Both the position numbers and the translations under genes were made by a program. DNA of 64,000 nucleotides from Pseudomonas sp. SCA2728.1_7 (GTDB taxonomy: Bacteria > Pseudomonadota > Gammaproteobacteria > Pseudomonadales > Pseudomonadaceae): positions 558,001 through 622,000 of the forward strand of contig NZ_CP073104.1 of NCBI RefSeq assembly GCF_018138145.1, in the 5' to 3' direction. The notes under the pieces were generated by a model. That model was not told where the DNA came from. It made no database searches and saw only the letters and a list, made by a program, of their open reading frames with translations. Positions within the stretch are counted from its first letter, which is position 1, and every line of letters begins with the position of its first letter. This document shows, piece after piece, positions 1 to 12,577 of this stretch.

Positions 1-1804
1 CGCCGCAGCGCTGCAGTAGCTCGCGACACTCATCACTGATGTGTTCACCGCCGAGAAAGACTTTTTCAATGCCGCCGTAACGGCTCAGACGTAGCTGTTC
101 GTTGAGGAACAATCGATGCAGGGTGCTGGGCATGCCGATCAGCACGGTGACGCGCTGCTCGATGATCACTTGAGCAATGTCGCTATAGTCATCGTCGGCG
201 GGTGCGCCCATGGGCAGGTGAGTTGCGCCCAACAGTTCCAGTACTTTGGCGAAACTGAAGAAGCCGCCGTACAGGCTGCCACTGAAGAACAGGTTCATGA
301 CCTTGTCGCGACCCGGATCGAGTCCTGCCGCAAACAGACCATCGGCGGCGGCGCGCATCTGGCGTTGAAAGTCGCGGTAGCTGAACCCCGCTAGCGCCGG
401 TGTGCCGCTGCTGCCGCCAGAGCGGAAAAACAGTTGTGCGGCCGCTGTCGTCGGCCGCGCGATAAACGCCGCTTTGTCGGTGATCGGCAGGCCCGACAGC
501 GACGGCGCGCGAGGCGGCCGGTCGAGGGTCATATGGCTAGGCAAATGCGTTGGCGCGATGCTGACCGAGACACGTCGGCTCAGGCGTTGCAGTGCGTAAA
601 CGCCGTCGTGAGGTTCGCCGTCGTAGCCGTCATGAATGGCATTGACGGGCGTAATGCGGCTGACGCCCGCGGCAATCAGCGTGCGCGACAGTTCAGCGAT
701 CTGCGGTTCGGCACACACCAGTGCACAACTCTGCAATACGTTGCGCCAGGGCAGCAGCGTCTGGGCCAGACGCGCGCGTGGCAGGGGCTTGAGCAGCAGC
801 GTGCGAAACAGTGGCGAGGGCGCGAGCACTTGGTCATGGCGCCAGACAACTCGCCAGCCCGGCGCGCTCCAGACGTGCGCCGTCACAGCAGAAAAGCTCT
901 GGGCCAGGCGCGTCATCAAGGTATGGGTGGTGATCTCGCTGGCTTCCTGGACCGTTGGGGTCAGCGCCGGCCATTGCCCGGCACGGCGCTCGAACGCCGT
1001 GGCCAACGCTGAGCCGATTTCGTGCAGCACGGCCGGTTCGTCGCTGTCGACCAGTAACCATTGCGGGCTGGAACAGGCCTGCTGATCCAGTCGGCAAACC
1101 TCATCGGCTATCGCCTCCAGCGTTTGCGGCGTGGCAGCGTCCGGCGTCAGGTAGGCAAAACTGACGCGGTGGCCCCAATCGATCCAGCGGCATCCGGGCG
1201 GCAACTGTTGGCGGATGGCTTGCAGCGCGGCTTCGCCACCCCACGCCGATACGCCATTGGCCATTTTGCACAAGCGGCCGATTTGCGCGGTCGCCACCGG
1301 CAGCACGGCCACGTAATGGTGCAGTTGACCACTGGGGTCGCATTGCACCAACGCATGCAGCAGACGTGCAGTCAGACCTTGGTCGCTGCGGCTGGGGCGT
1401 AGCCAGTTGATGTTGCCGGCCAAGAGGCTTTCGATCATCGCGCAGCAGGCCAGCAATGGCGCGTTGGCCGGTGTCACGTGGACCACCAGACCCAAGGGGC
1501 TCCAGCGCTCGAAACGCGATTGCCGACAATCGAAGCGGCGCAGGGAATCGGCATGATCACCCAGCTCGCGTTCAAGTTTGTTTTGCAGGGCGTGAGGCTG
1601 ACAGAAATCGATCAGGGCCTGGCGTTGTTCGTCATCCAGCGGCAATTCGACGCTGTGCAGTTGCTGCGCAAGGTTTGCCGCGGCGGTCAGCACAGTGGCG
1701 CGCTGCAGCGGTGTGCTCAGGTGTTGCGCTAAGGTCTGATGCAGCAGCGTCAGTGCGGTGTCGAGATCGAAGTCCGCGTGCAGTTCTCCGTTGATCAGGT
1801 ACAT
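1..1804 (-). CDS. LuxC-like acyl-CoA reductase fused to AMP-forming acyl/aryl-CoA ligase domain (3' end beyond window)
   Basis: One uninterrupted minus-strand frame of 601 codons starts at ATG 1804 and runs off the window edge. Residues about 1-400 resemble LuxC, the fatty acyl reductase that turns acyl-CoA or acyl-enzyme into aldehyde. The family active-site motif 'DQQACSSPQ' puts the catalytic Cys at residue 244. From about residue 460 the chain resembles adenylate-forming enzymes of the phenylacetate-CoA ligase group, with the ATP-binding loop 'FFRSGGSSGTP' and a downstream 'FLGGEHIS'. LuxC proteins are normally about 480 residues without a ligase, so this is a two-enzyme fusion. It begins one base after the stop of the LuxE-like gene, so the two are almost certainly co-transcribed. 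The inference is that one polypeptide activates a carboxylic acid and reduces it. The substrate is unknown, and the C-terminus cannot be seen here. Confidence 0.85.
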   Translation of the reverse strand, partial: MYLINGELHADFDLDTALTLLHQTLAQHLSTPLQRATVLTAAANLAQQLHSVELPLDDEQRQALIDFCQPHALQNKLERELGDHADSLRRFDCRQSRFERWSPLGLVVHVTPANAPLLACCAMIESLLAGNINWLRPSRSDQGLTARLLHALVQCDPSGQLHHYVAVLPVATAQIGRLCKMANGVSAWGGEAALQAIRQQLPPGCRWIDWGHRVSFAYLTPDAATPQTLEAIADEVCRLDQQACSSPQWLLVDSDEPAVLHEIGSALATAFERRAGQWPALTPTVQEASEITTHTLMTRLAQSFSAVTAHVWSAPGWRVVWRHDQVLAPSPLFRTLLLKPLPRARLAQTLLPWRNVLQSCALVCAEPQIAELSRTLIAAGVSRITPVNAIHDGYDGEPHDGVYALQRLSRRVSVSIAPTHLPSHMTLDRPPRAPSLSGLPITDKAAFIARPTTAAAQLFFRSGGSSGTPALAGFSYRDFQRQMRAAADGLFAAGLDPGRDKVMNLFFSGSLYGGFFSFAKVLELLGATHLPMGAPADDDYSDIAQVIIEQRVTVLIGMPSTLHRLFLNEQLRLSRYGGIEKVFLGGEHISDECRELLQRCG

Positions 1805-1805
1805 A

Positions 1806-2936
1806 TCAGTGCTTCCCCAATAATTCAGATGCCGCCATCGCGCAGCTTCTGCCGACGGTAGTGCCCGCGCGGCCATGCAGTTCGAACCAGTCACTGGCCA
1901 GACCGCAGCCGCAACTCGAGCCGGGATACAGCGTCGCCAGGTCGCTCATCACCACCGCGTGCGCCGGGCTGGATGAAATGTAAGGCGAGACAAAACCCAG
2001 CAAGCCTTGCTGGCCGTAGGGCTGGACGGAAAAGTCGCGCGGATTGCGCACGTAAGCCTTGGCGTAAACCGGAACATGAAAATGATGCCGGGCACATTCG
2101 ATGTAGGGCACTGCGTGCTCGACCGCACCGTAACCGTCTCGGCATCGCGACATCTCAATGCCCAATTGCCGGGCGATGTGCTCATACAGTTGTTGTTTTG
2201 GAATCTCCTCGCTGGCGCGGGTTTTCCAGCCACCGCCGAAAAACACCAGCGAATCGGCCGGCAGTTGCAGGGCAGGCATGCCGGTGGTCTGCATCTGCTG
2301 CAGGGTCTGCCAGAGAAATGCCGGGAAACCGAAAATGCGCACCGGCAGGCATTCTTCGGCGAACGATTGCAGGGCAGCGATGACGCCAAACACATCGAAC
2401 TGATGGCCGTCGCCGTTGCAGCGCAAGGCATAGACGACCCGATTGACCGGGGCAAAGCGGCAGAGGAATTGGTCGGTGTAGGACGTCCCCAGCGTGATCG
2501 CGCCTTGCGGCTCGTAGCTCAGCAGCAGGTAGTTGCACGGCGTGTCCGGTGAATTCCAGCCGTAGTGGCTAAAGATCCGTTCGACCATGAACTGCGCGCT
2601 CGACAGACTGCGTGGGTCGTAGCGCATGCGGCTTTTCTGGCCACTGGTGCCGGACGAGGTCAGTTCCAGAGCGGTTTCTCCGGTGGGACTGAGCAGCAAT
2701 TGCTGTTTGAAGAAATTGGCCAGAATTGGCGGCAGTCGCGACCAGTCATCGAGACCGTCCAGGTCCTGTACGTCAAAGCCGTTCGCGTTCAGCCAATGTG
2801 CGTAGCCGGGGGTGTGCTGGCAATGAAACCGACTGATCTCGGCCATGGCCTGATCGAACAGGCCGGCAGGCACGGCCTCCGGGCAATAGGGGTGCGGCAA
2901 CGCGCAGAGCGCATCGCTGGCGGGGAAGTGGTTCAT
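1806..2936 (-). CDS. LuxE-like acyl-protein synthetase / acyl-activating enzyme
   Basis: This 376-residue protein has the length of LuxE. LuxE activates fatty acids as acyl-AMP, holds the acyl group on a C-terminal Cys and passes it to the LuxC reductase. The nucleotide-binding loop 'SSGTSGQKSRM' lies at residues 94-104. A C-terminal 'GRSCAMAASELL' places Cys365 close to where the acyl-accepting Cys of LuxE sits (about 364). The start has a good ribosome site (AAGGA). It follows the exporter gene by 11 bases and precedes the LuxC fusion by one, so the three form an operon. No luciferase luxA or luxB is present in the window, so the role is probably in a specialised lipid or aldehyde pathway rather than light. 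The family assignment is firm; the substrate is unknown. Confidence 0.85.
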   Translation of the reverse strand: MNHFPASDALCALPHPYCPEAVPAGLFDQAMAEISRFHCQHTPGYAHWLNANGFDVQDLDGLDDWSRLPPILANFFKQQLLLSPTGETALELTSSGTSGQKSRMRYDPRSLSSAQFMVERIFSHYGWNSPDTPCNYLLLSYEPQGAITLGTSYTDQFLCRFAPVNRVVYALRCNGDGHQFDVFGVIAALQSFAEECLPVRIFGFPAFLWQTLQQMQTTGMPALQLPADSLVFFGGGWKTRASEEIPKQQLYEHIARQLGIEMSRCRDGYGAVEHAVPYIECARHHFHVPVYAKAYVRNPRDFSVQPYGQQGLLGFVSPYISSSPAHAVVMSDLATLYPGSSCGCGLASDWFELHGRAGTTVGRSCAMAASELLGKH

Positions 2937-2947
2937 TCAATATTCCT

Positions 2948-4195
2948 TTATTGAGCAGAAGCGGAGTCAGGTCGGTTGCGTTGCAACAGTCCCTGGACCA
3001 GAGGCAGGCACATCAGGCCGCTGAAGGCGGCGTAGAGCGCAAAGAGTTCGAGGCGTGCGCCACCACCGATGGCGGCAATGAGCGAACCGCCGAGGCCCAT
3101 CACCGCAATCGAAATCATCCCGACCAGCGCCGAGACCAGGCCCTTGCTGTCATCGCTGGCAAACAGCGCCAGCCGATACACTGCGGCGTTGCTCATGCCC
3201 AGCCCTATCGCATACAGCGCCAGGCTCGCGACCACCGGACCAAGACCGGCGCCAGATAGTGCGCAGCCGATCAACGCCAGAAGTCCCAGGCAAAACGGCC
3301 AGAGCGCCAAGCGAATCAGCCGCGGTAACGAGTGCGTGGCCAGCAAGCGGTCGAGGATCAGATTGCCGACGATAACGGCGGAGAAAATCGGCATCTGCCA
3401 CAAGGCATATTCCACTGGCGGCAGCCCCAGCAACTGCATCAGCAGCAACGGCGCCAGGCCGATCCACGCGATCAGCGGCAGGCTCATCAGCCCCAGCGCA
3501 AGGCTTGCGGCGAGAAACCGGCAATTGCCAAACAGCGCGCGGTAACGCTGGCCGGTCTGGCGCCAGGAAAAACGCACCACTGGTTGCAGGCGTCCATCGC
3601 GACGCACGGTCCCGACTGTTTCCGGCATGCAGACGAAAAGCCCCAGCCAGACCATTGATGCGGCAACACCCAAACCGAGAAACAACTCACGCCAGGACAG
3701 CCATTGCAGGAGCAGGATGCCCAGCAGCGGCCCCACCAACGGTGACAGCAGGGCGATATTGCCGAGCAGTGCCATCAAACGCACCGCATCGGCCTCGCAG
3801 AACACTTCTTGAAGGGCGGGATAACTGACCGCCACGACAAACCCCAGGCCCATGCCTTGCAGCAGTCGCAGCAGATTGAAGGCTTCAATGCTGTGACTGG
3901 CAAATGCTCCCGCGCAGGCGACACCGAACACTGCGCAACCGCTCAACAATACCCGCCTTCGACCCCATTGATCGGACAGCGGCCCGATCAGCCATTGCAG
4001 GCAGACGCCGCCTAGCAGATAGAGATTGAAGGCGTTGGGAACATGTCGCGCATCGGCTTGAAGTTCTGTTGTAACGGTCAGCATGGCCGGCATGATCAAG
4101 TCGCTGGCCAGGTAAGTCAGAAGTTCAAAAGCGCTGATGGCCAAACAAAACCCGAGCACTTGGAGTGGCCCGATTGGTATGAGTGTTCTCTGCAT
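2948..4195 (-). CDS. MdfA-like MFS drug/metabolite exporter
   Basis: A 415-residue inner-membrane protein with about 12 hydrophobic segments. The first helix carries Glu24 and Asp32 in 'AFELLTYLASDLIMPAM', matching the paired acidic residues of E. coli MdfA. Motif A, 'GPLSDQWGRRR', is at residues 71-81, and the antiporter motif 'SPLVGPLLG' at about 151-159 supports proton-coupled export. Known MdfA relatives expel lipophilic cations and neutral drugs. It is the first gene of the unit that continues with the LuxE- and LuxC-like enzymes. By context it may export the product of those enzymes or protect the cell from it; that is inference. Confidence 0.85.
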   Translation of the reverse strand: MQRTLIPIGPLQVLGFCLAISAFELLTYLASDLIMPAMLTVTTELQADARHVPNAFNLYLLGGVCLQWLIGPLSDQWGRRRVLLSGCAVFGVACAGAFASHSIEAFNLLRLLQGMGLGFVVAVSYPALQEVFCEADAVRLMALLGNIALLSPLVGPLLGILLLQWLSWRELFLGLGVAASMVWLGLFVCMPETVGTVRRDGRLQPVVRFSWRQTGQRYRALFGNCRFLAASLALGLMSLPLIAWIGLAPLLLMQLLGLPPVEYALWQMPIFSAVIVGNLILDRLLATHSLPRLIRLALWPFCLGLLALIGCALSGAGLGPVVASLALYAIGLGMSNAAVYRLALFASDDSKGLVSALVGMISIAVMGLGGSLIAAIGGGARLELFALYAAFSGLMCLPLVQGLLQRNRPDSASAQ

Positions 4196-4365
4196 ATACG
4201 TCCCTGTTGGTGAATGGAAGAAAGTTGCCAGAGACTAGTTGCAGAGGCTTGTGCGACCTACTTTTTTGCTGCGACATTAGATTTCAAATACTTGCAACTT
4301 GTTTAGGGGGTTGCACTTTGCGCAGGAACACTTGTTACCTCTGCGTGGCAGATGCCAGCGGCAAA

Positions 4366-5356: not shown

Positions 5357-5589
5357 GCGATTACTCCTTTTCAGAGTCTGATCGGGGAGGGTTTTTTTGC
5401 TCTCTCTAAACAAGACGTATCAGCACGACAAATCATGAAAGAAAATATGTAGAAAATTTGTTGGGGGTTTGTCTTTTTCTTGTGATTTCGGGTTGGGGGG
5501 GGTTGGCCGTGGCGGCCTTTGGGCCGACCAGGTTCTTGGGGTTTTGGGGGTATATCCGTTTTTTTTGGGGTTGCGGCTGGCGGTTCCGC

Positions 5590-5870
5590 CCTTACGGCGG
5601 GTCACTTTTTCAGACGCCAAAAAGTAACCAAAAGCTGGGCCCCGGCGTTCGGCCCTCGCCGTGGCTCGGGTTCCTTCGTTACGGGATCTATCCGGGGGCA
5701 TCGCCTACGGTTTGCTTCGCTGCACCTCCTCTCGATGCATTTGGCTCCGCCAAACGGTCGCTGCGCTCCCACCCCCGGATAAATCCCTCCACTCAGCCTG
5801 CCGAAGGGGCCAGCACGGCAAGATCAAGAGCTGCAGTCGAGCTAACGCTCATCCTGTTGAGTGGTGAGTA
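5590..5870. repeat. Large dispersed intergenic repeat
   Basis: This stretch has the composition of a repeat that recurs between genes in many fluorescent pseudomonads: 'CTTACGGCGGGTCAC', 'CCAAAAAGTAACCAAAAG', 'GGATCTATCCGGGGGCATCGC'. It contains short inverted repeats. Reading frames of 65-140 residues exist on both strands, but they have skewed composition and no ribosome sites, so no gene is called. The flanking stretch 5414-5590 is G/T-rich and shows nothing else. Confidence 0.5.
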
Positions 5871-5883
5871 GCGGGCGGGGGGG

Positions 5884-6893
5884 CGGCTTTTGATTTGTTT
5901 CTGAATTTGAGTGCGGCTCGGTATCTCACACGTCGGCGTACCTCTACCAATCACCTCGGTCAGTTCCCTCTCCCTCTGGGAGAGGGCCAGGGTGAGGGGC
6001 TTTTGATTTATTTCTGAATTTGAGTACGGCTCGGTATCTCACGTCGGCGTACCTCTACCAATCACCGCGATCAGTTCCCTCTCCCTCCGGGAGAGGGCTA
6101 GGGTGAGGGGCTTTTGATCTGGTTCAGTATCGAATTCAACTCGGTATTTCATGTCGCTGTATTTCTCGCAATCACCTCGGTCAGCTCCCTCTCCCTCCGG
6201 GAGAGGGCCAGGGTGAGGGGCTTTTGATCTGGCGCGGTATTGAGTTTAACTCGGTGTTTCATGTCGCTGTATCTCTCGCCATCACCGCGGTCAGTTCCCT
6301 CTCCCTCCGGGAGAGGGCCAGGGTGAGGGGCTTTTGATCTGGCGCGGTATTGAGTTTAACTCGGTGTTTCATGTCGCTGTATCTCTCGCCATCACCGCGG
6401 TCAGTTCCCTCTCCCTCCGGGAGAGGGCCAGGGTGAGGGGCTTTTGATCTGGTTCAGTATCGAATTCAACTCGGTATTTCATCTCGCTGTATCTCTACCA
6501 ATCACCGCGATCAGTTCCCTCTCCCTCCGGGAGAGGGCCAGGGTGAGGGGCTTTTGATCTGGTTCAGTATTGAGTTCAACTCGGTATTTCATGTCGCTGT
6601 ATCTCTACCAATCACCTCGGTCAGTTCCCTCTCCCTCCGGGAGAGGACCAGGGTGAGGGGCTTTTGATCTGGCTCGGTATTGAGTTCAACTCGGTGTTTC
6701 ATGTCGCTGTATCTCTACCAATCACCTCGGTCAGTTCCCTCTCCCTCCGGGAGAGGACCAGGGTGAGGGGCTTTTGATCTGGCGCGGTATTGAGTTCAAC
6801 TCGGTATTTCATGTCGCTGTACCTCTACCAATCACCGCGATCAGTTCCTTCTCCCTCCGGGAGAGGGCTAGGGTGAGGGGCTTTTGATTCCGC
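5884..6893. repeat. Nine tandem copies of a 110-bp hairpin-containing unit
   Basis: The hairpin core CCCTCTCCCTCCGGGAGAGGG begins at 5966, 6077, 6187, 6297, 6407, 6517, 6627, 6737 and 6847, a period of 110 bases (111 for the first step). Each unit also holds 'GGTGAGGGGCTTTTGAT', 'CAACTCGGTATTTCATGTCG' and 'CAATCACC(T/G)CGGTCAGTTCC'. Some neighbouring units are almost identical over their full length, which points to recent expansion. No coding frame with a credible start crosses the array. Single or partial copies of the core occur at about 17138-17190 and 28878-29290. Confidence 0.9.
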
Positions 6894-6916
6894 TTTGGGG
6901 GATTGCGTGGAGAACC

Positions 6917-6939
6917 TAAATTTTTTCCTCTGACTTCGT
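6917..6939 (+). promoter_or_regulatory. Candidate iron-starvation sigma (PvdS/FpvI-type) promoter for pvdQ
   Basis: The sequence CCTAAAT, then 15 bases, then CGT fits the bipartite iron-starvation box (TAAAT at -35, CGT at -10) used by PvdS-like ECF sigma factors. It lies about 100 bases before the proposed pvdQ start. The same element with the same 15-base gap precedes the siderophore receptor gene at 32108-32130. Confidence 0.5.
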
Positions 6940-7038
6940 TTCTTCGACAGGCTCATTGCGCGTGGACGCGTGGGTGTTTCCAGGGCGGGTCCGCGTTAGC
7001 GCCAGATCCGCTCTTTGGCATGTCGATCAGGAGCGAGC

Positions 7039-9486
7039 GTGATTATTTCCAGACAGTTAACCGGATTGAGGCAGCTGCAAGCTTCGAGCTTCGAGCGGCA
7101 AGTTGAAAACTTCGGTTCGAATGTCAAATATGGCTTTTGCTCGAAGCTTGTCGCTCGTAGCTTGCAACTTACAGTGGCCAGCGTGCTTTTCGGACTGAGT
7201 TGCTCAGCCCATGCGTTCAGCCCGGCCACTGATGTCAGCGCGGATATCCGCCGTACCGCTTTTGGCGTGCCGCATATTCGTGCGCAAGACGAGCGCGGGC
7301 TCGGGTTTGGCATTGGTTACGCCTACGCGCAGGACAACCTGTGCCTGTTGGCCAACGAGATCGTGACCGTCAACGGCCAGCGTTCACGTTATTTCGGCCC
7401 GGATCAGTTCACCGTCGAACAACGCGAAAACCGTGTCAGCGACGTGTTCTTCACCTGGCTCAATACGCCCGAGGCGGTCAAGGCTTTCTGGCAGGCGCAA
7501 CCTGCGCAGGTGCGTGATCTGGTCGAAGGCTATGCCGCCGGCTACAACCGTTATCTGGCTGAGCGCCGCCCGCAGGGCTTGCCGCAACAGTGTCAGGGTG
7601 AGTGGGTGCGAGACATCGCTGCGCAAGATCTGGTGAAGCTGACCCGCCGTTTGCTGGTCGAGGGGGGTGTCGGTCAGTTCGCCGAGGCTTTGGCCGGTGC
7701 TACACCGCCGCATGCGAGCGCCGCAATCGAACAGAACGCGCAGGCCTATCAGTTGGCCGATGCCCGTCAGCAGCGTTTTGCCCTGGATCGTGGCAGTAAC
7801 GCTGTCGCGGTGGGCAGCGAGCGCTCGTTCAACGGGCGTGGGATGTTGCTGGCCAACCCGCACTTCCCTTGGGTTGGCGGCATGCGCTTTTATCAGATGC
7901 ACCTGACCATTCCCGGCAAACTCGATGTCATGGGCGCTGCCTTGCCGGGCCTGCCGATGATCAATATCGGTTTCAATCAGCACCTGGCCTGGACGCACAC
8001 GGTCGATTCATCGAAACACTTCACACTCTATCGTCTGCAACTCGATCCGAAGGATTCCACGCGCTATCTGCTCGATGGCAAATCATTGCCGCTGAACAAG
8101 CAGACCGTCACCGTGCAGGTGAAACAGGCCGACGGTCAGGTAGTGCCGGTCTCGCGTGATGTCTACAGCTCGCAGTTCGGGCCGATCGTGCAATGGCCGG
8201 GCAAGCTCGACTGGGACAATCAGTTTGCCTACAGTTTGCGCGACGCCAATATCGACAATGATCGGGTGCTGAACCAGTGGTACACGATGAATCAGGCGTC
8301 CACGCTTCAGGAATTGCAGGATTCAGTGCACAAGATTCAGGGTATTCCGTGGGTCAACACCCTGGCCGTCGATGACAAGGGCCAGACGCTGTACATGAAC
8401 CTGTCGGTGGTGCCAAACGTCAACGCCGAGAAGCTGGCCAAGTGCAGTGACCCGCGTATTGGCACGCAAATGATTGTGCTGGATGGCTCCAACAGCGCCT
8501 GCGCGTGGGACATCGACCCAACTGCGGCGCAGAAGGGCATCTATGCCTCCAGTCAGTTGCCGCAGCTGTTGCGCAAGGATTTCGTCCAGCATTCCAACGA
8601 CTCTGCGTGGCTGGCCAACCCGGCGCAACCGCTGACCGGTTTCTCGCCGCTGATCAGTCAGGAAGGTCAACCGCTGGGCTTGCGTTCCCGTTTCGCGCTG
8701 GACCGCTTGAGCACGCTGAGTAAAAAAGGTCCGTTGGCAGTGAAGGATCTGCAGCAGATGGTAATGGACGATCAGGTGTATCTGGCGACTCAGGTTGTAC
8801 CGGATCTGCTGAAGTTCTGTGCCTCTGACCTTGGCGCCGACGCGCAATCCCTGAAGCCGGTCTGCACCAGCCTCAAGGCCTGGGATGGCCGGGCCAATCT
8901 CGATTCGGGCGTGGGCCTGGTGCACTTCCAGAACATCATGCAGGCATTGGAGGCCTCGCCGGATGTCTGGCGCGTTGCGTTCGATCCCAAAGATGCGCAA
9001 CACACCCCGCGTGGACTGGCCGTCGAGCAGCCGGCGGTGGCCAAGGCATTGCGTGAGGCCATGCTGGCGTCGGTCGAATTGAGCACAAAGATGGGTCTCA
9101 AGCCGCAAACCCGCTGGGGTGATATCCAGGTGGTCAGCAGTGGCGGGCAACAGACGCCGATTCACGGCGGGCCGGCTACCCTGGGAATCTACAACGCCAT
9201 CCAGAGCGTGCCCCGTGAGGACGGCAAACTCGAAGTGGTCAGTGGCACCAGCTACCTGCAAGTCGTGACGTTCGATGACAAGGGCCCGCACGCCCAAGGG
9301 CTGCTGGCATTCTCGCTGTCGAGCGATCCGGCGTCGAAGTATTCGCGGGACCAGACCGAGGCGTTCTCGAAGAAACAGTGGAGTGTGCTGCCGTTCACCG
9401 AACAGCAGATTCAGGCTGACCCGCAGTATCAGGTGCAGACTGTTCGCGAGACGTTGGACAAGGCGGGGAACGTTGCCGCTCAATAA
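7039..9486 (+). CDS. pvdQ: PvdQ-type acyl-homoserine-lactone / pyoverdine-precursor acylase (Ntn hydrolase)
   Basis: A periplasmic enzyme that in Pseudomonas removes the fatty-acid tail of the pyoverdine precursor and can also cleave long-chain acyl-homoserine lactones. The signature 'RGSNAVAVG' marks the autocatalytic cleavage site, with the nucleophilic Ser at residue 253 from GTG 7039. Other family stretches are '[19 protein letters not shown]', '[18 protein letters not shown]', '[15 protein letters not shown]' and '[13 protein letters not shown]'. The N-terminus ends in a signal peptide, '[16 protein letters not shown]'. The start is uncertain: there is no ATG, GTG 7039 has AGGAG upstream, and TTG 7015 lies further out. 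The first 45 or so codons pass through a short inverted repeat, so the protein is longer than the usual 760-residue form. An iron-starvation box upstream fits regulation with pyoverdine genes. Confidence 0.93.
7066..7173. repeat. Short inverted repeat overlapping the pvdQ 5' end
   Basis: The arms 'GCTGCAAGCTTCGAGCTTCG' and, inverted, 'CGAAGCTTGTCGCTCGTAGC' flank a central AT-rich loop. This 'AGCTTGCAGCTCGAAGCTTG' composition is typical of small intergenic repeats in Pseudomonas, here read in frame with the acylase. Confidence 0.55.
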
Positions 9487-9510
9487 ACCCGAGCGTTAGT
9501 GTCGACGAGT

Positions 9511-9546
9511 CTGAAGGCCGCATCCTGCAAAGGGTGCGGCCTTCAG
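9511..9546 (+). terminator. Bidirectional terminator between pvdQ and the FpvR-like gene
   Basis: A 16-base stem with one mismatch (CTGAAGGCCGCATCCT / AGGGTGCGGCCTTCAG) and a 4-base loop is followed by CTTTTT. Its right arm covers the stop codon (9543-9545) of the convergent gene. Confidence 0.85.
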
Positions 9547-10547
9547 CTTTTTGGCGGCTGTTGCGGTATCGAGTTGATCACCGGGTTACCTTCCTTGTTG
9601 CGGCTCAGGTAGACCGGCAGCACCTTGGGCAGGCTGTTGGCGAGGTTGCTCAGCTCTTTGATGTTGTAGATGCCGCCCACGCGAATCGAACCGGTGTGAG
9701 TGTCAGCCAGCTCCAATGGATTGCTCAGATATCGATTGATCAGTGGCAGGGCGTCGCTCAGCGCGAGGTTATCCAGCACCAGTTTGCCGTTGCGCCAGGC
9801 CAATGAACTGTCATCGGCGTAGGTCTGGCTGATCTGCGGCATGTAGTCGCCTTGTTTGTAACGTGCCTGCATCGATGGGCCGAGGCGCAAGCCGTCGCCT
9901 GGTAATGAACGATTGCTGGTGACCAGCACTGAACCTTCGATCAGGTTCACGCGCACCTGGTCCTGATACATCCAGACATTGAAACGCGTCCCCGTGACGC
10001 GAATCCTGCCTTCGCCTGCGCGAACGACAAACGGGTGGGCCATGTCGTGACTGACCGTAAAGAACGCTTCACCTTTTTTCAGGGTGACGCGGCGTTCGTC
10101 CTTGTAATTGCTGAAGGTCAGATCGGTGTTCAGGTTCAATTCGAGCTGGCTGCCATCACTCAAGGTAACCTGCCGGACATTATCGGTGGCAGCGAAATGC
10201 TGGTAGCTGTTCGGCAACCAGCCCAGATTCCAGCCGGTATAAGCCGCCAGCGGCAGTGCGAGTGCAAAGACACCTGCGGCTACAGCGAACTGGCGCCACG
10301 AGCGCGAAGAAGTTGGCCGCGGTGTCACGACCGAGGGCGATTCGGGGCGCGGCAGGTGTTCGGCCACGTCCCAGATTTCCAGCATGGCTTCATACTCGAA
10401 CGCGTGCAGTGGATGAGCGTCGTGCCATTGCTTGAACGCGCGACGCTCTTCTTCCGTGCAGTCGGCGGCGTGCACACGCATGCACCAATGCGCAGCGGCA
10501 TCGGTGATCGCATCGTATTCGGCTTCCGAAAGGGTGTCTTGGGTCAT
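9543..10547 (-). CDS. FecR/FpvR-like anti-sigma regulator
   Basis: A 334-residue membrane-anchored regulator of ECF sigma factors. From ATG 10547 (AGGA upstream) it shows an N-terminal DUF4880-type cytoplasmic segment with 'AAHWCMRVHAADCTEEERRA' at about 12-31, one transmembrane helix ('FAVAAGVFALALPLAAY') at about residues 87-103, a periplasmic FecR domain with 'VTLSDGSQLELNLNTDL', and a C-terminal sensor-type region. A start at ATG 10568 is also in frame but has a poorer ribosome site. FecR proteins usually sit beside their sigma factor; none is adjacent here. Its place next to pvdQ, as in P. aeruginosa where fpvR lies near pvdQ, suggests control of PvdS/FpvI. That specific role is inferred. 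Confidence 0.8.
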   Translation of the reverse strand: MTQDTLSEAEYDAITDAAAHWCMRVHAADCTEEERRAFKQWHDAHPLHAFEYEAMLEIWDVAEHLPRPESPSVVTPRPTSSRSWRQFAVAAGVFALALPLAAYTGWNLGWLPNSYQHFAATDNVRQVTLSDGSQLELNLNTDLTFSNYKDERRVTLKKGEAFFTVSHDMAHPFVVRAGEGRIRVTGTRFNVWMYQDQVRVNLIEGSVLVTSNRSLPGDGLRLGPSMQARYKQGDYMPQISQTYADDSSLAWRNGKLVLDNLALSDALPLINRYLSNPLELADTHTGSIRVGGIYNIKELSNLANSLPKVLPVYLSRNKEGNPVINSIPQQPPKS

Positions 10548-10699
10548 TGACTCGTCCTGATTTCGCACATTCTAACCTTGTCGGGAAGTTACCGAGAACA
10601 TCCGTCATGGCATTTGCCCATCAAAGTGGAACTTATTTTTCGCTCAGGCACCCAAAAAGCAGGACGCCAATGACCACTATCCACAAATGGAGTGAAAAA

Positions 10700-10969
10700 A
10701 TGATCAAAAAGACATTCGCAGCCTTGATCGCTACTGCCGGTTTGCTGAGTGCAGGCGCCGCGCTGGCTGACCGGCCGGGCGCAGGCTGGATTACCATCGA
10801 AAAAGCCATCGAGATCGTCAAAACCAAGGCCGGTTACGTCGAGGTCTATGAGATCGAGGCCGACAACGACGGCTACTGGAAGGGCGAAGGGCGCAAGGCT
10901 GATGGTGTTGTCTACGAGTTCCGCATCGACGGCGCGTCGGGCAATGTATTGCGGGATCAGAAAGACTGA
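10700..10969 (+). CDS. Periplasmic PepSY-domain protein
   Basis: An 89-residue secreted protein. The start at ATG 10700 follows GGAGTGA. A signal peptide runs to 'LLSAGAALA' with cleavage before Asp24. The rest is one PepSY domain: 'WITIEKAIEIVKTKAGYVEV' then 'YEFRIDGASGNVLRDQKD'. Proteins of this size with a single PepSY domain are thought to bind or inhibit periplasmic enzymes and are often linked to two-component or stress regulation, but the partner here is not evident. It is divergent from the FpvR-like gene and ends in a strong terminator. Confidence 0.8.
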   Translation: MIKKTFAALIATAGLLSAGAALADRPGAGWITIEKAIEIVKTKAGYVEVYEIEADNDGYWKGEGRKADGVVYEFRIDGASGNVLRDQKD

Positions 10970-10993
10970 TTAGCCGGTCATGACCGCAAGCAG

Positions 10994-11021
10994 GCGCAGG
11001 TTTCGACCTGCGCTTTTTTTT
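10994..11021 (+). terminator. Rho-independent terminator of the PepSY gene
   Basis: Perfect stem GCGCAGGT / ACCTGCGC with a TTCG loop and a run of eight T. Confidence 0.9.
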
Positions 11022-11026
11022 GCGGT

Positions 11027-12577
11027 TCAGGGCAGCGGAACCGGATCGAGCTGTCGACCCATCTCGCAGACAATACGGGCGATCGAATCGGCGTTGCGCA
11101 AGATCACATCGATACGAATGTCCGCTGACGCCTGATCCAGAAACGCATCGCGCGCCTTCTCCATGTCGGAGCTGCGGGTTAGCTTGAGGATTTCCTTGGC
11201 CAGGCCCTTGGTAGACTTGAAGTGTTCCAGTGTGAGAAATGAGCCGCTATTTTTGTCCCATCGAGCAAACAGTTCATCTCGAGGTGTCGCGAGTGAAAGC
11301 GCCTCGGTCTGGAATCTTTCCAGTTCAGCCTGAGCAGCACGTCCATAGGCGGAGACGGTAGAGACCAGATCGTGAAACGGGCGTCGCGCTTCCAGCGAGG
11401 CTATGTCCTCAGCCATTGAAAACTGATGGGAAAATTCGTGGATTATCGTCGCGGCTTGGGCATGGCCATCAACATCGAAGTCGGCAGGCACTAGCGGTTT
11501 GTACAAATCCAGCAACGGGTGGAAGAAGTTCTCGGTGAAGTGCACCTTCTTCAGATCGTCATTGTTCAGTACAAACGCAATGATGTGGGAGAAGTAGGTG
11601 TTGGTGCCGACCACGAAACGTTCGGTATTCATCAAGTCATCGTTGGGGTCCACCAGTGCCTTGCAAATGGGCGCGATGCTTTTGTTGAGTTTGCTCAGCA
11701 AGTTCAGATCGACCTGGGGAACACCAAAGCACATCTTGAGAAAACCATCGAGTCGAGTGCCGGGGACGTTGGCTTTCAGTTGCGCGAGGTTATGCAGGCA
11801 GTTGAAAGCATAAGAACGGGCAAGGTTGATGGCATGCTGGATGACCCAGGCTTTATACGGATAGTTGCGTCGAATTTCGGTCATGCCCACCGCTTCGATA
11901 TTCATCAGCGCGCGACGATTCTGATTCACCCCGTGGCGCTTGTAGAGTGTCGACATCGCTTTGCCGTAGTGCACAGCGTGGCGGTCGGGCGCCAACAACA
12001 ATCGTGAGCCAGACAGGGTCAATGACGGGCCGGCAATTTTCTCGTTGACCATCTGCCACACAGCTCCCGGCTGTTCAATCCGTACAACCTTGCCATCGAT
12101 GGCTGTGTACGTGCGCTTGCTGATCGGGTCTTCGAAGGTGCCCTTTTTGGTCTGACGCTTGAGATCTTCCAGTGCCACGGCGCTCGTTTCGAAGGTTCGC
12201 AGTTCAGTGCGTAACGGCGAAGTTATCCGCAACTGCGACCAGGCAACGGCCGCTGGTGCGGGTGAATTTGTGATTTCGGCCCCGTCAGATGCGCTTGGGG
12301 AAGGTGTTGAGGATGTTGGCGCCGCCGCAGCGACGGCTTCCGTGGATTCAATGCTCAGCCGCCCCAGACTGATCATCTGGAGCGCACCCTCGATAAATGA
12401 CTTCAGTGCACGTGACCAGTGATGATCCTGCAGGTTTTCCGCCGAATCCTTGAACGCTTTGTAGGCTTGCCAGAGAAACGTTATGTAGGAGATTTTGCCC
12501 GGCAGCAGCCCCGCCGTCAGATGGAAGCCGCGACTGAACAGGTGTTTCGCCGCCTCCCAGTCGGCCTGAGCATGGTG
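11027..12577 (-). pseudogene. C-terminal half of interrupted toxin: zinc-metallopeptidase-like domain
   Basis: This segment continues, in the same frame, the gene that stops at TAG 12578-12580; no base is gained or lost. The first ATG after the stop is at 12376, giving a 449-residue piece, but the frame is open from the TAG onward and reads like normal protein ('DWEAAKHLFSRGFHLTAG'). A zincin motif, HEFSH (HExxH), lies at 11426-11440, residue 1477 of the joined protein, inside 'ATIIHEFSHQFSMAEDI'. In large Pseudomonas toxins such C-terminal domains carry the activity. No ribosome site is obvious for separate translation, so it is probably silent unless the stop is read through. Host target unknown. 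Confidence 0.7.

Follow-up and report, generated by a model that had tools for sequence, protein, structure and literature searches.

Three consecutive minus-strand genes at the left edge of the 64,000-nucleotide stretch of Pseudomonas sp. SCA2728.1_7 DNA analysed here (the window: contig NZ_CP073104.1, positions 558,001 to 622,000; G000:C1:558001-622000) very probably belong to a leupeptin-type (leup) operon, an exporter gene followed by leupABCD, whose predicted product is a peptide aldehyde that would be exported. Leupeptin itself is acetyl-Leu-Leu-argininal. The window holds the promoter-proximal part of the operon; the host genome is a single contig of 6.78 Mb, and the part to the left of the window was read in it (locus L002, G000:C1:546001-564000). 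The whole comprises five minus-strand genes in the order exporter, leupA-, leupB-, leupC- and leupD-like. The leupeptin-type assignment is the most likely one because this operon is collinear with an operon that carries the exact published leup primer sites.

An earlier note on this DNA, made from the window, had described a three-gene operon for a possibly undescribed acyl-aldehyde pathway. The three genes and the short gaps between them (11 bases for exporter/leupA-like, 1 base for leupA-like/leupB-like) are as that note gave them. The third gene, however, is cut by the window edge, and in the host genome it is followed after 41 bases by a gene for a stand-alone ligase, which overlaps by 19 bases a gene for a GNAT protein. 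The note had named the genes beyond the left edge as the place where its reading could fail. These two genes complete the leupABCD set already described from Klebsiella, which refutes the claim of an undescribed pathway.

Collinearity with the leup operon of Klebsiella

In Klebsiella michiganensis (formerly K. oxytoca) CAV1374, a "transporter and leupABCD" are placed at nt 315,353-321,183 (5,831 bp), and the primers leupA_f and leupB_r are given with a 1,235-bp product (PMC8283571; this and the other papers cited by PMC number are drawn on in excerpt). A Klebsiella-type reference was found by matching a flank primer to a genus, in which 2 of 20 genomes carry the LuxC-ligase fusion gene. In one of them (locus L140), leupA_f and leupB_r have perfect matches that delimit exactly 1,235 bp, and the two published insertion-site primers match as well, one on either side of the operon; the core_r insertion-site primer was used as printed in the text of PMC8283571, and a corrigendum corrects that primer. 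In the second fusion-bearing genome the span between the leup primers is equal, and their sites differ from them by 4 and 2 mismatches.

The L140 operon has the order MFS, LuxE, LuxC-ligase, ligase and GNAT, which is the order and orientation of the window operon, and the leupA-D span is nearly equal at 5,798 bp in the host, 5,837 bp in L140 and 5,831 bp as published (PMC8283571). The two operons differ in their chromosomal neighbours and in protein sequence, with identities of 46% for the exporter, 61% for LeupA, 53% for LeupB (802 columns), 50% for LeupC and 37% for LeupD. Between L140 and the operon of L122, which we call Photorhabdus-like on account of the 84-86% identity of its LeupB to two Photorhabdus-named proteins (L123-L125 have the same genus label), the corresponding LeupA-D values are 68, 52, 54 and 44%. 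The window LeupB is as near to the Klebsiella-type protein as the Photorhabdus-like LeupB is, and the window LeupA, LeupC and LeupD are 4-7 points further away.

The leup cluster of K. oxytoca is responsible for leupeptin, its Lys analogue and derived pyrazinones; that of Photorhabdus leads to a leupeptin-derived pyrazinone and those of Photorhabdus and Xenorhabdus to a homoarginine pyrazinone (PMC11480411); a region of the Photorhabdus khanii genome is listed as "Leupeptin" (PMC12542766). The Xenorhabdus and Photorhabdus operons share the LeupA-D order with the window operon, at 35-65% identity depending on the gene, and differ from it in their homoarginine products (PMC11480411) and in that no MdfA-type exporter was detected alongside them. 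The leup system is a kind already described, of which the host operon would be a Pseudomonas instance.

Table 1 Operon genes and candidate regulatory site. Positions are those of the window unless prefixed with L002.
Feature	Position	Strand	Basis
MdfA-like MFS exporter, gene 1	2948..4195	-	Pfam MFS_1; NCBIfam MdfA subfamily; 46% identity to L140 counterpart
LeupA-like (LuxE family), gene 2	1806..2936	-	Pfam LuxE; 61% identity to L140 LeupA
LeupB-like LuxC + PaaK-like AMP ligase fusion, gene 3	1..1804, cut at window edge; full L002:11408-13804	-	Pfam LuxC; 53% identity to L140 LeupB
LeupC-like stand-alone PaaK-like AMP ligase, gene 4	L002:10065-11366, left of window	same as gene 3	
LeupD-like GNAT protein, gene 5	L002:9139-10083, left of window	same as gene 3	
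CAGGGACG, candidate RsmA/RsmE site at ribosome site of exporter gene	4199..4206	-	fits motif CANGGANG

Predicted enzymes and proposed pathway

The identities that the earlier note had given to the three window genes hold. Against the MdfA subfamily model the exporter scores 318 bits, though this is below the model cut-off of 439. The LeupA-like protein matches Pfam LuxE (E 1.2e-25), and in alignment its Cys365 falls on a cysteine close to the C-terminal end of LuxE in the solved structure 7xc6_E. The LeupB-like protein (798 amino acids, counted from the conserved ATG in the host genome) consists of a LuxC part (Pfam LuxC, E 3.8e-109), which aligns to the solved 7xc6_A, followed by a PaaK-like AMP ligase part. 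The LeupC-like protein is a PaaK/DVU_1553-like AMP ligase, and both PaaK-like ligase units match phenylacetate-CoA ligases of solved structure. Nine aligned sequences show no variation at the P-loop TSSGTxGQKS and Cys365 of the LeupA-like protein, at Cys244 within DQQACSSP of the LeupB-like protein or at the C-terminal lysine (in SGK or R-x-GK) of either ligase unit. We take the counterparts of Cys365 in LuxE and of Cys244 in LuxC to be the catalytic cysteines. The catalytic motifs looked for (those of three adenylating units and the LuxC and LuxE cysteines) are intact, as far as motif presence tells, in the window operon and in five other operons.

The LeupD-like protein has 314 amino acids, and its predicted structure has a mean pLDDT (predicted local distance difference test) of 93.1. 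Residues of about 4-170 of the model give GNAT matches and have the standard GNAT fold. By eye, the strand and helix order of residues of about 176-278 looks like a second, degenerate GNAT unit.

In the pathway that we propose, LeupD would acetylate leucine with acetyl-CoA as the donor. LeupC and the C-terminal half of LeupB would then activate acetyl-Leu and acetyl-Leu-Leu as acyl-AMP, and the ligase units would join the activated acyls first to Leu and, in the second step, to arginine or a related basic amino acid. LeupA would adenylate the free carboxylate of the tripeptide and carry the acyl on Cys365, from which the LuxC part of LeupB would take it over on Cys244 for NAD(P)H-dependent reduction; the resulting peptide aldehyde would be exported by the MFS protein. 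What the analysis establishes is the set and order of the genes, their homology and the intactness of the motifs; the role of each protein and the bond made by each ligase unit are inferred. The part count fits this scheme: three acyl activations would be needed, for which the operon would have three adenylating units, and it would also supply a reductase and an acyl-CoA transferase.

Older enzymology distinguished three activities: that of an acetyl-CoA:leucine acyltransferase, that of a leupeptin-acid synthetase dependent on ATP and that of a leupeptin-acid reductase dependent on both ATP and NADPH. The GNAT protein, the two ligase units and the LuxE/LuxC pair fit these three, and the only surplus part is the exporter.

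Alternative readings

With the LuxC/LuxE fatty-acid reductase of luminous bacteria (7xc6), the operon shares the LuxE and LuxC families and the alignments to chains E and A; it differs from lux in the ligase fused to LuxC, the stand-alone ligase, the GNAT protein and the lack of a luciferase alongside. Against the luminescence equivalog cut-offs of 750 bits (LuxC) and 550 bits (LuxE), its LuxC reaches 50.6 bits and its LuxE 50.5 bits. Neither luxA nor luxB is in the operon. A lux remnant was considered as well and set aside. The earlier statement that no luciferase is present holds for the five operon genes and the neighbours scanned, but not without qualification for the genome, which elsewhere encodes seven proteins of the broad luciferase-like monooxygenase family PF00296, with about 100 kb separating the nearest of them from the operon. 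A LuxD search gave no match in the host, an uninformative result as 14 control genomes also gave none.

What survives of the original proposal is a secreted aldehyde, which would be made by a LuxE/LuxC carboxylate-to-aldehyde module outside bioluminescence and released by the exporter. That this aldehyde is fatty, produced by an undescribed pathway in which LuxE and LuxC reduce a fatty acid, is very improbable. Membership of the LuxC and LuxE families would agree with it, but both proteins lie far under the luminescence equivalog cut-offs, the operon showed no gene for an acyl carrier protein (ACP) or for fatty-acid synthesis, and the leupABCD set is complete. A peptide aldehyde is the best reading, and an undescribed acyl-aldehyde pathway is not supported. 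Pairs of luxC and luxE outside luminescence are already known from flagellin-glycosylation islands, which also carry AMP synthetases and acyltransferases (PMC4875605, PMC7874193). We give the least credence to the operon being part of such a flagellin or surface-glycan modification island: the neighbours scanned include no pseudaminate, ACP or fabG gene, and the sole glycosyltransferase-type gene in the left stretch, about 7 kb past the operon, is of the starch/glycogen-synthase kind. Furthermore, 22 leup rows (self-match included) score 274-863 bits against the window LuxC domain, as opposed to 43-68 bits for 5 of the 11 other LuxC loci in a phylum-wide sample. Acyl-CoA reductases are also mentioned in PMC13106123 and PMC7326052, whose excerpts do not tie them to the window operon, and the ioc/leu cluster, which has leucine biosynthesis genes and an enzyme for a beta-lactone (PMC9177418), is not equivalent.

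The leupeptin-type assignment has points of its own against it. A leupeptin-type product in this strain, or in any Pseudomonas, is a prediction from the genes. The window LeupA is 61-65% identical to its Klebsiella-type, Photorhabdus-like and Xenorhabdus counterparts, which are 66-74% identical among themselves, and the same comparison gives 35-39% vs 39-44% for LeupD; because both fall a few points below the values among the other genera, the N-acyl cap or one of the residues may not be that of leupeptin. The basic residue already varies among leup operons, with Lys in Klebsiella and homoarginine in Xenorhabdus and Photorhabdus (PMC11480411). The LuxC-domain tree is weakly resolved and has very long outgroup branches; its five non-leup rows are not one clade and require two changes, and it was not used to argue for monophyly.

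It is possible, if the less probable course, that a leup-type operon has drifted here to another acylated short-peptide aldehyde, with a different N-acyl cap or different residues, which would be a narrower form of the leupeptin-type assignment and not exclusive of it. In addition to the lower LeupA identity and the varying basic residue, such drift would agree with the divergence of LeupD, the presumed capping enzyme (37% window/Klebsiella vs 44% Klebsiella/Photorhabdus-like). LeupD is, however, the least conserved enzyme in all 15 operon pairs compared (32-48%), so its low identity alone is weak evidence for drift, and the window LeupB and LeupC are about as similar to those of the leupeptin-making genera as the latter are to one another (52-54% vs 51-60% for LeupB, 46-50% vs 47-56% for LeupC).

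Distribution, export and possible control

The fusion protein has 130 relatives in the named genome collection scanned, the best 80 of which were kept for locus counts. The LuxE, LuxC-ligase, ligase and GNAT genes lie in the same order on one strand in 80/80 kept loci, and in 69 of these the exporter was called first and all five genes are present. This four- or five-gene linkage is far above chance. The closest named loci among those kept are from Pseudomonas, mainly with fluorescens-group names. Of 398 congeneric genomes sampled (host counted), 74 carry the fusion gene at E 1e-100 or better, as do 15 of 392 genomes of an enterobacterial family sample, two of the latter matches being part-length; at 1e-20, 13 of 398 genomes in the phylum-wide sample match, two of them (the host and one other) at full length. 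The primary leup operon paper is Li et al. 2020 (Angew. Chem.), cited in PMC8283571 and PMC11480411; among the open-licence papers that our searches listed, none was seen to report leup genes from Pseudomonas, and Li et al. may well mention them. At L096 and L098 (genus g101), LuxE and LuxC are fused in one protein of about 820 amino acids, which at L098 is adjoined by a frame resembling, by sight, an AMP ligase.

The exporter gene is present in Pseudomonas, Rugamonas and Parachitinimonas operons and in several enterobacterial ones. The 11 kept loci without a called exporter are ten from Xenorhabdus and one from Pseudomonas (L012, P. fluorescens PfAR1); in the latter, the exporter region and LuxE form a single open frame of 794 amino acids (L012:7618-10002), for which either a fusion or an error in sequencing may account. 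No MdfA-type exporter was detected beside the leup operon in the ten Xenorhabdus loci (L074 has <1 kb upstream) or the four Photorhabdus-like loci L122-L125, and at L072 a different MFS-looking gene was seen upstream by sight. At L119 and L127 the exporter is a remnant or broken. The L119 operon lies on a Salmonella enterica conjugative plasmid (CP054717.1, positions 5467-11630), with an exporter remnant of 121 amino acids and recombinase genes no more than about 6 kb away. This pattern, together with the unrelated MFS gene on the Streptomyces plasmid described next, suggests that export was joined to the pathway more than once.

A Streptomyces plasmid (NZ_CP108162.1, L120:3842-11283) carries homologues of LeupA, LeupB and LeupC with 48, 41 and 38% identity in a different gene order, together with an annotated GNAT only weakly similar to the LeupD-like protein and an MFS gene that lacks significant similarity to the window exporter. 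Three annotated I36 peptidase-inhibitor genes adjoin these homologues. LeupA, LeupB and LeupC homologues were also seen on pSCAT of Streptantibioticus cattleyicolor (L121). As Streptomyces leupeptin is treated as made by a non-ribosomal peptide synthetase (NRPS) (PMC10548850), the L120/L121 enzyme set may be an overlooked NRPS-free leupeptin source. The livipeptin cluster of Streptomyces lividans resembles the window operon in that an acylated leucine-argininal is proposed to be made without a full NRPS line, but it relies on an L/F-tRNA transferase and on an NRPS of the C-minus type that includes a reductase domain, instead of on LuxE/LuxC and PaaK-like ligases (PMC10548850).

By sight, a hairpin with a run of T lies upstream of the exporter gene, and a leader separates the two. 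The site listed in Table 1 fits CANGGANG, which we take to be the RsmA/RsmE motif. This motif overlaps the ribosome site of the exporter gene in 31 of 67 loci, compared with 13 of 603 other starts and 7 of the 432 control starts with GGA at the same place; the 67 loci are related to each other and the counts are not independent. The 36 misses include at least three loci (L015, L025, L053) whose starts look misplaced, and the motif is missing in all ten loci L055-L064 (corrugata/brassicacearum-type and kin). With loci so related, these counts only hint at Gac/Rsm control of the operon. Whereas the Pseudomonas operon has this possible RsmA/RsmE site, that of K. oxytoca is silent in typical laboratory media and induced by sialic acid (PMC11480411).

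The operon is flanked on the 3′ side of the leupD-like gene by an opposite-strand gene without a Pfam match and a chemoreceptor gene, and on the 5′ side of the exporter gene by two small genes, neither with a Pfam match. Further left lie DUF411, VTT, hydrolase, 2-hydroxyacid dehydrogenase and glycogen-synthase-type genes. Elsewhere in the window, a gene for a penicillin-amidase-family acylase (PF01804; 7015-9486, plus strand) adjoins a FecR-type gene (9543-10568, minus strand). Positions 11027-12376 (minus strand) encode a 449-amino acid protein without a Pfam match; by sight it has a metal-binding-like HEFSH motif and a Ser/Pro-rich N-terminus, and it is perhaps a metalloprotease-type protein.

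We offer as a speculation, and a rather unlikely one, that Pseudomonas leup machinery, possibly under Gac/Rsm, makes an acyl-peptide aldehyde other than leupeptin that acts on plant, insect or protist proteases, with the related Streptomyces set, linked to an unrelated exporter, perhaps being an overlooked NRPS-independent leupeptin source. For the 74 of 398 sampled Pseudomonas genomes in which such genes go under "acyl-CoA reductase / phenylacetate-CoA ligase" labels, the leupeptin-type assignment replaces these labels with a prediction, namely that the strains would secrete a leupeptin-type compound inhibiting serine and cysteine proteases. Such a compound could also explain protease-inhibiting activity of these Pseudomonas strains, should that be found.

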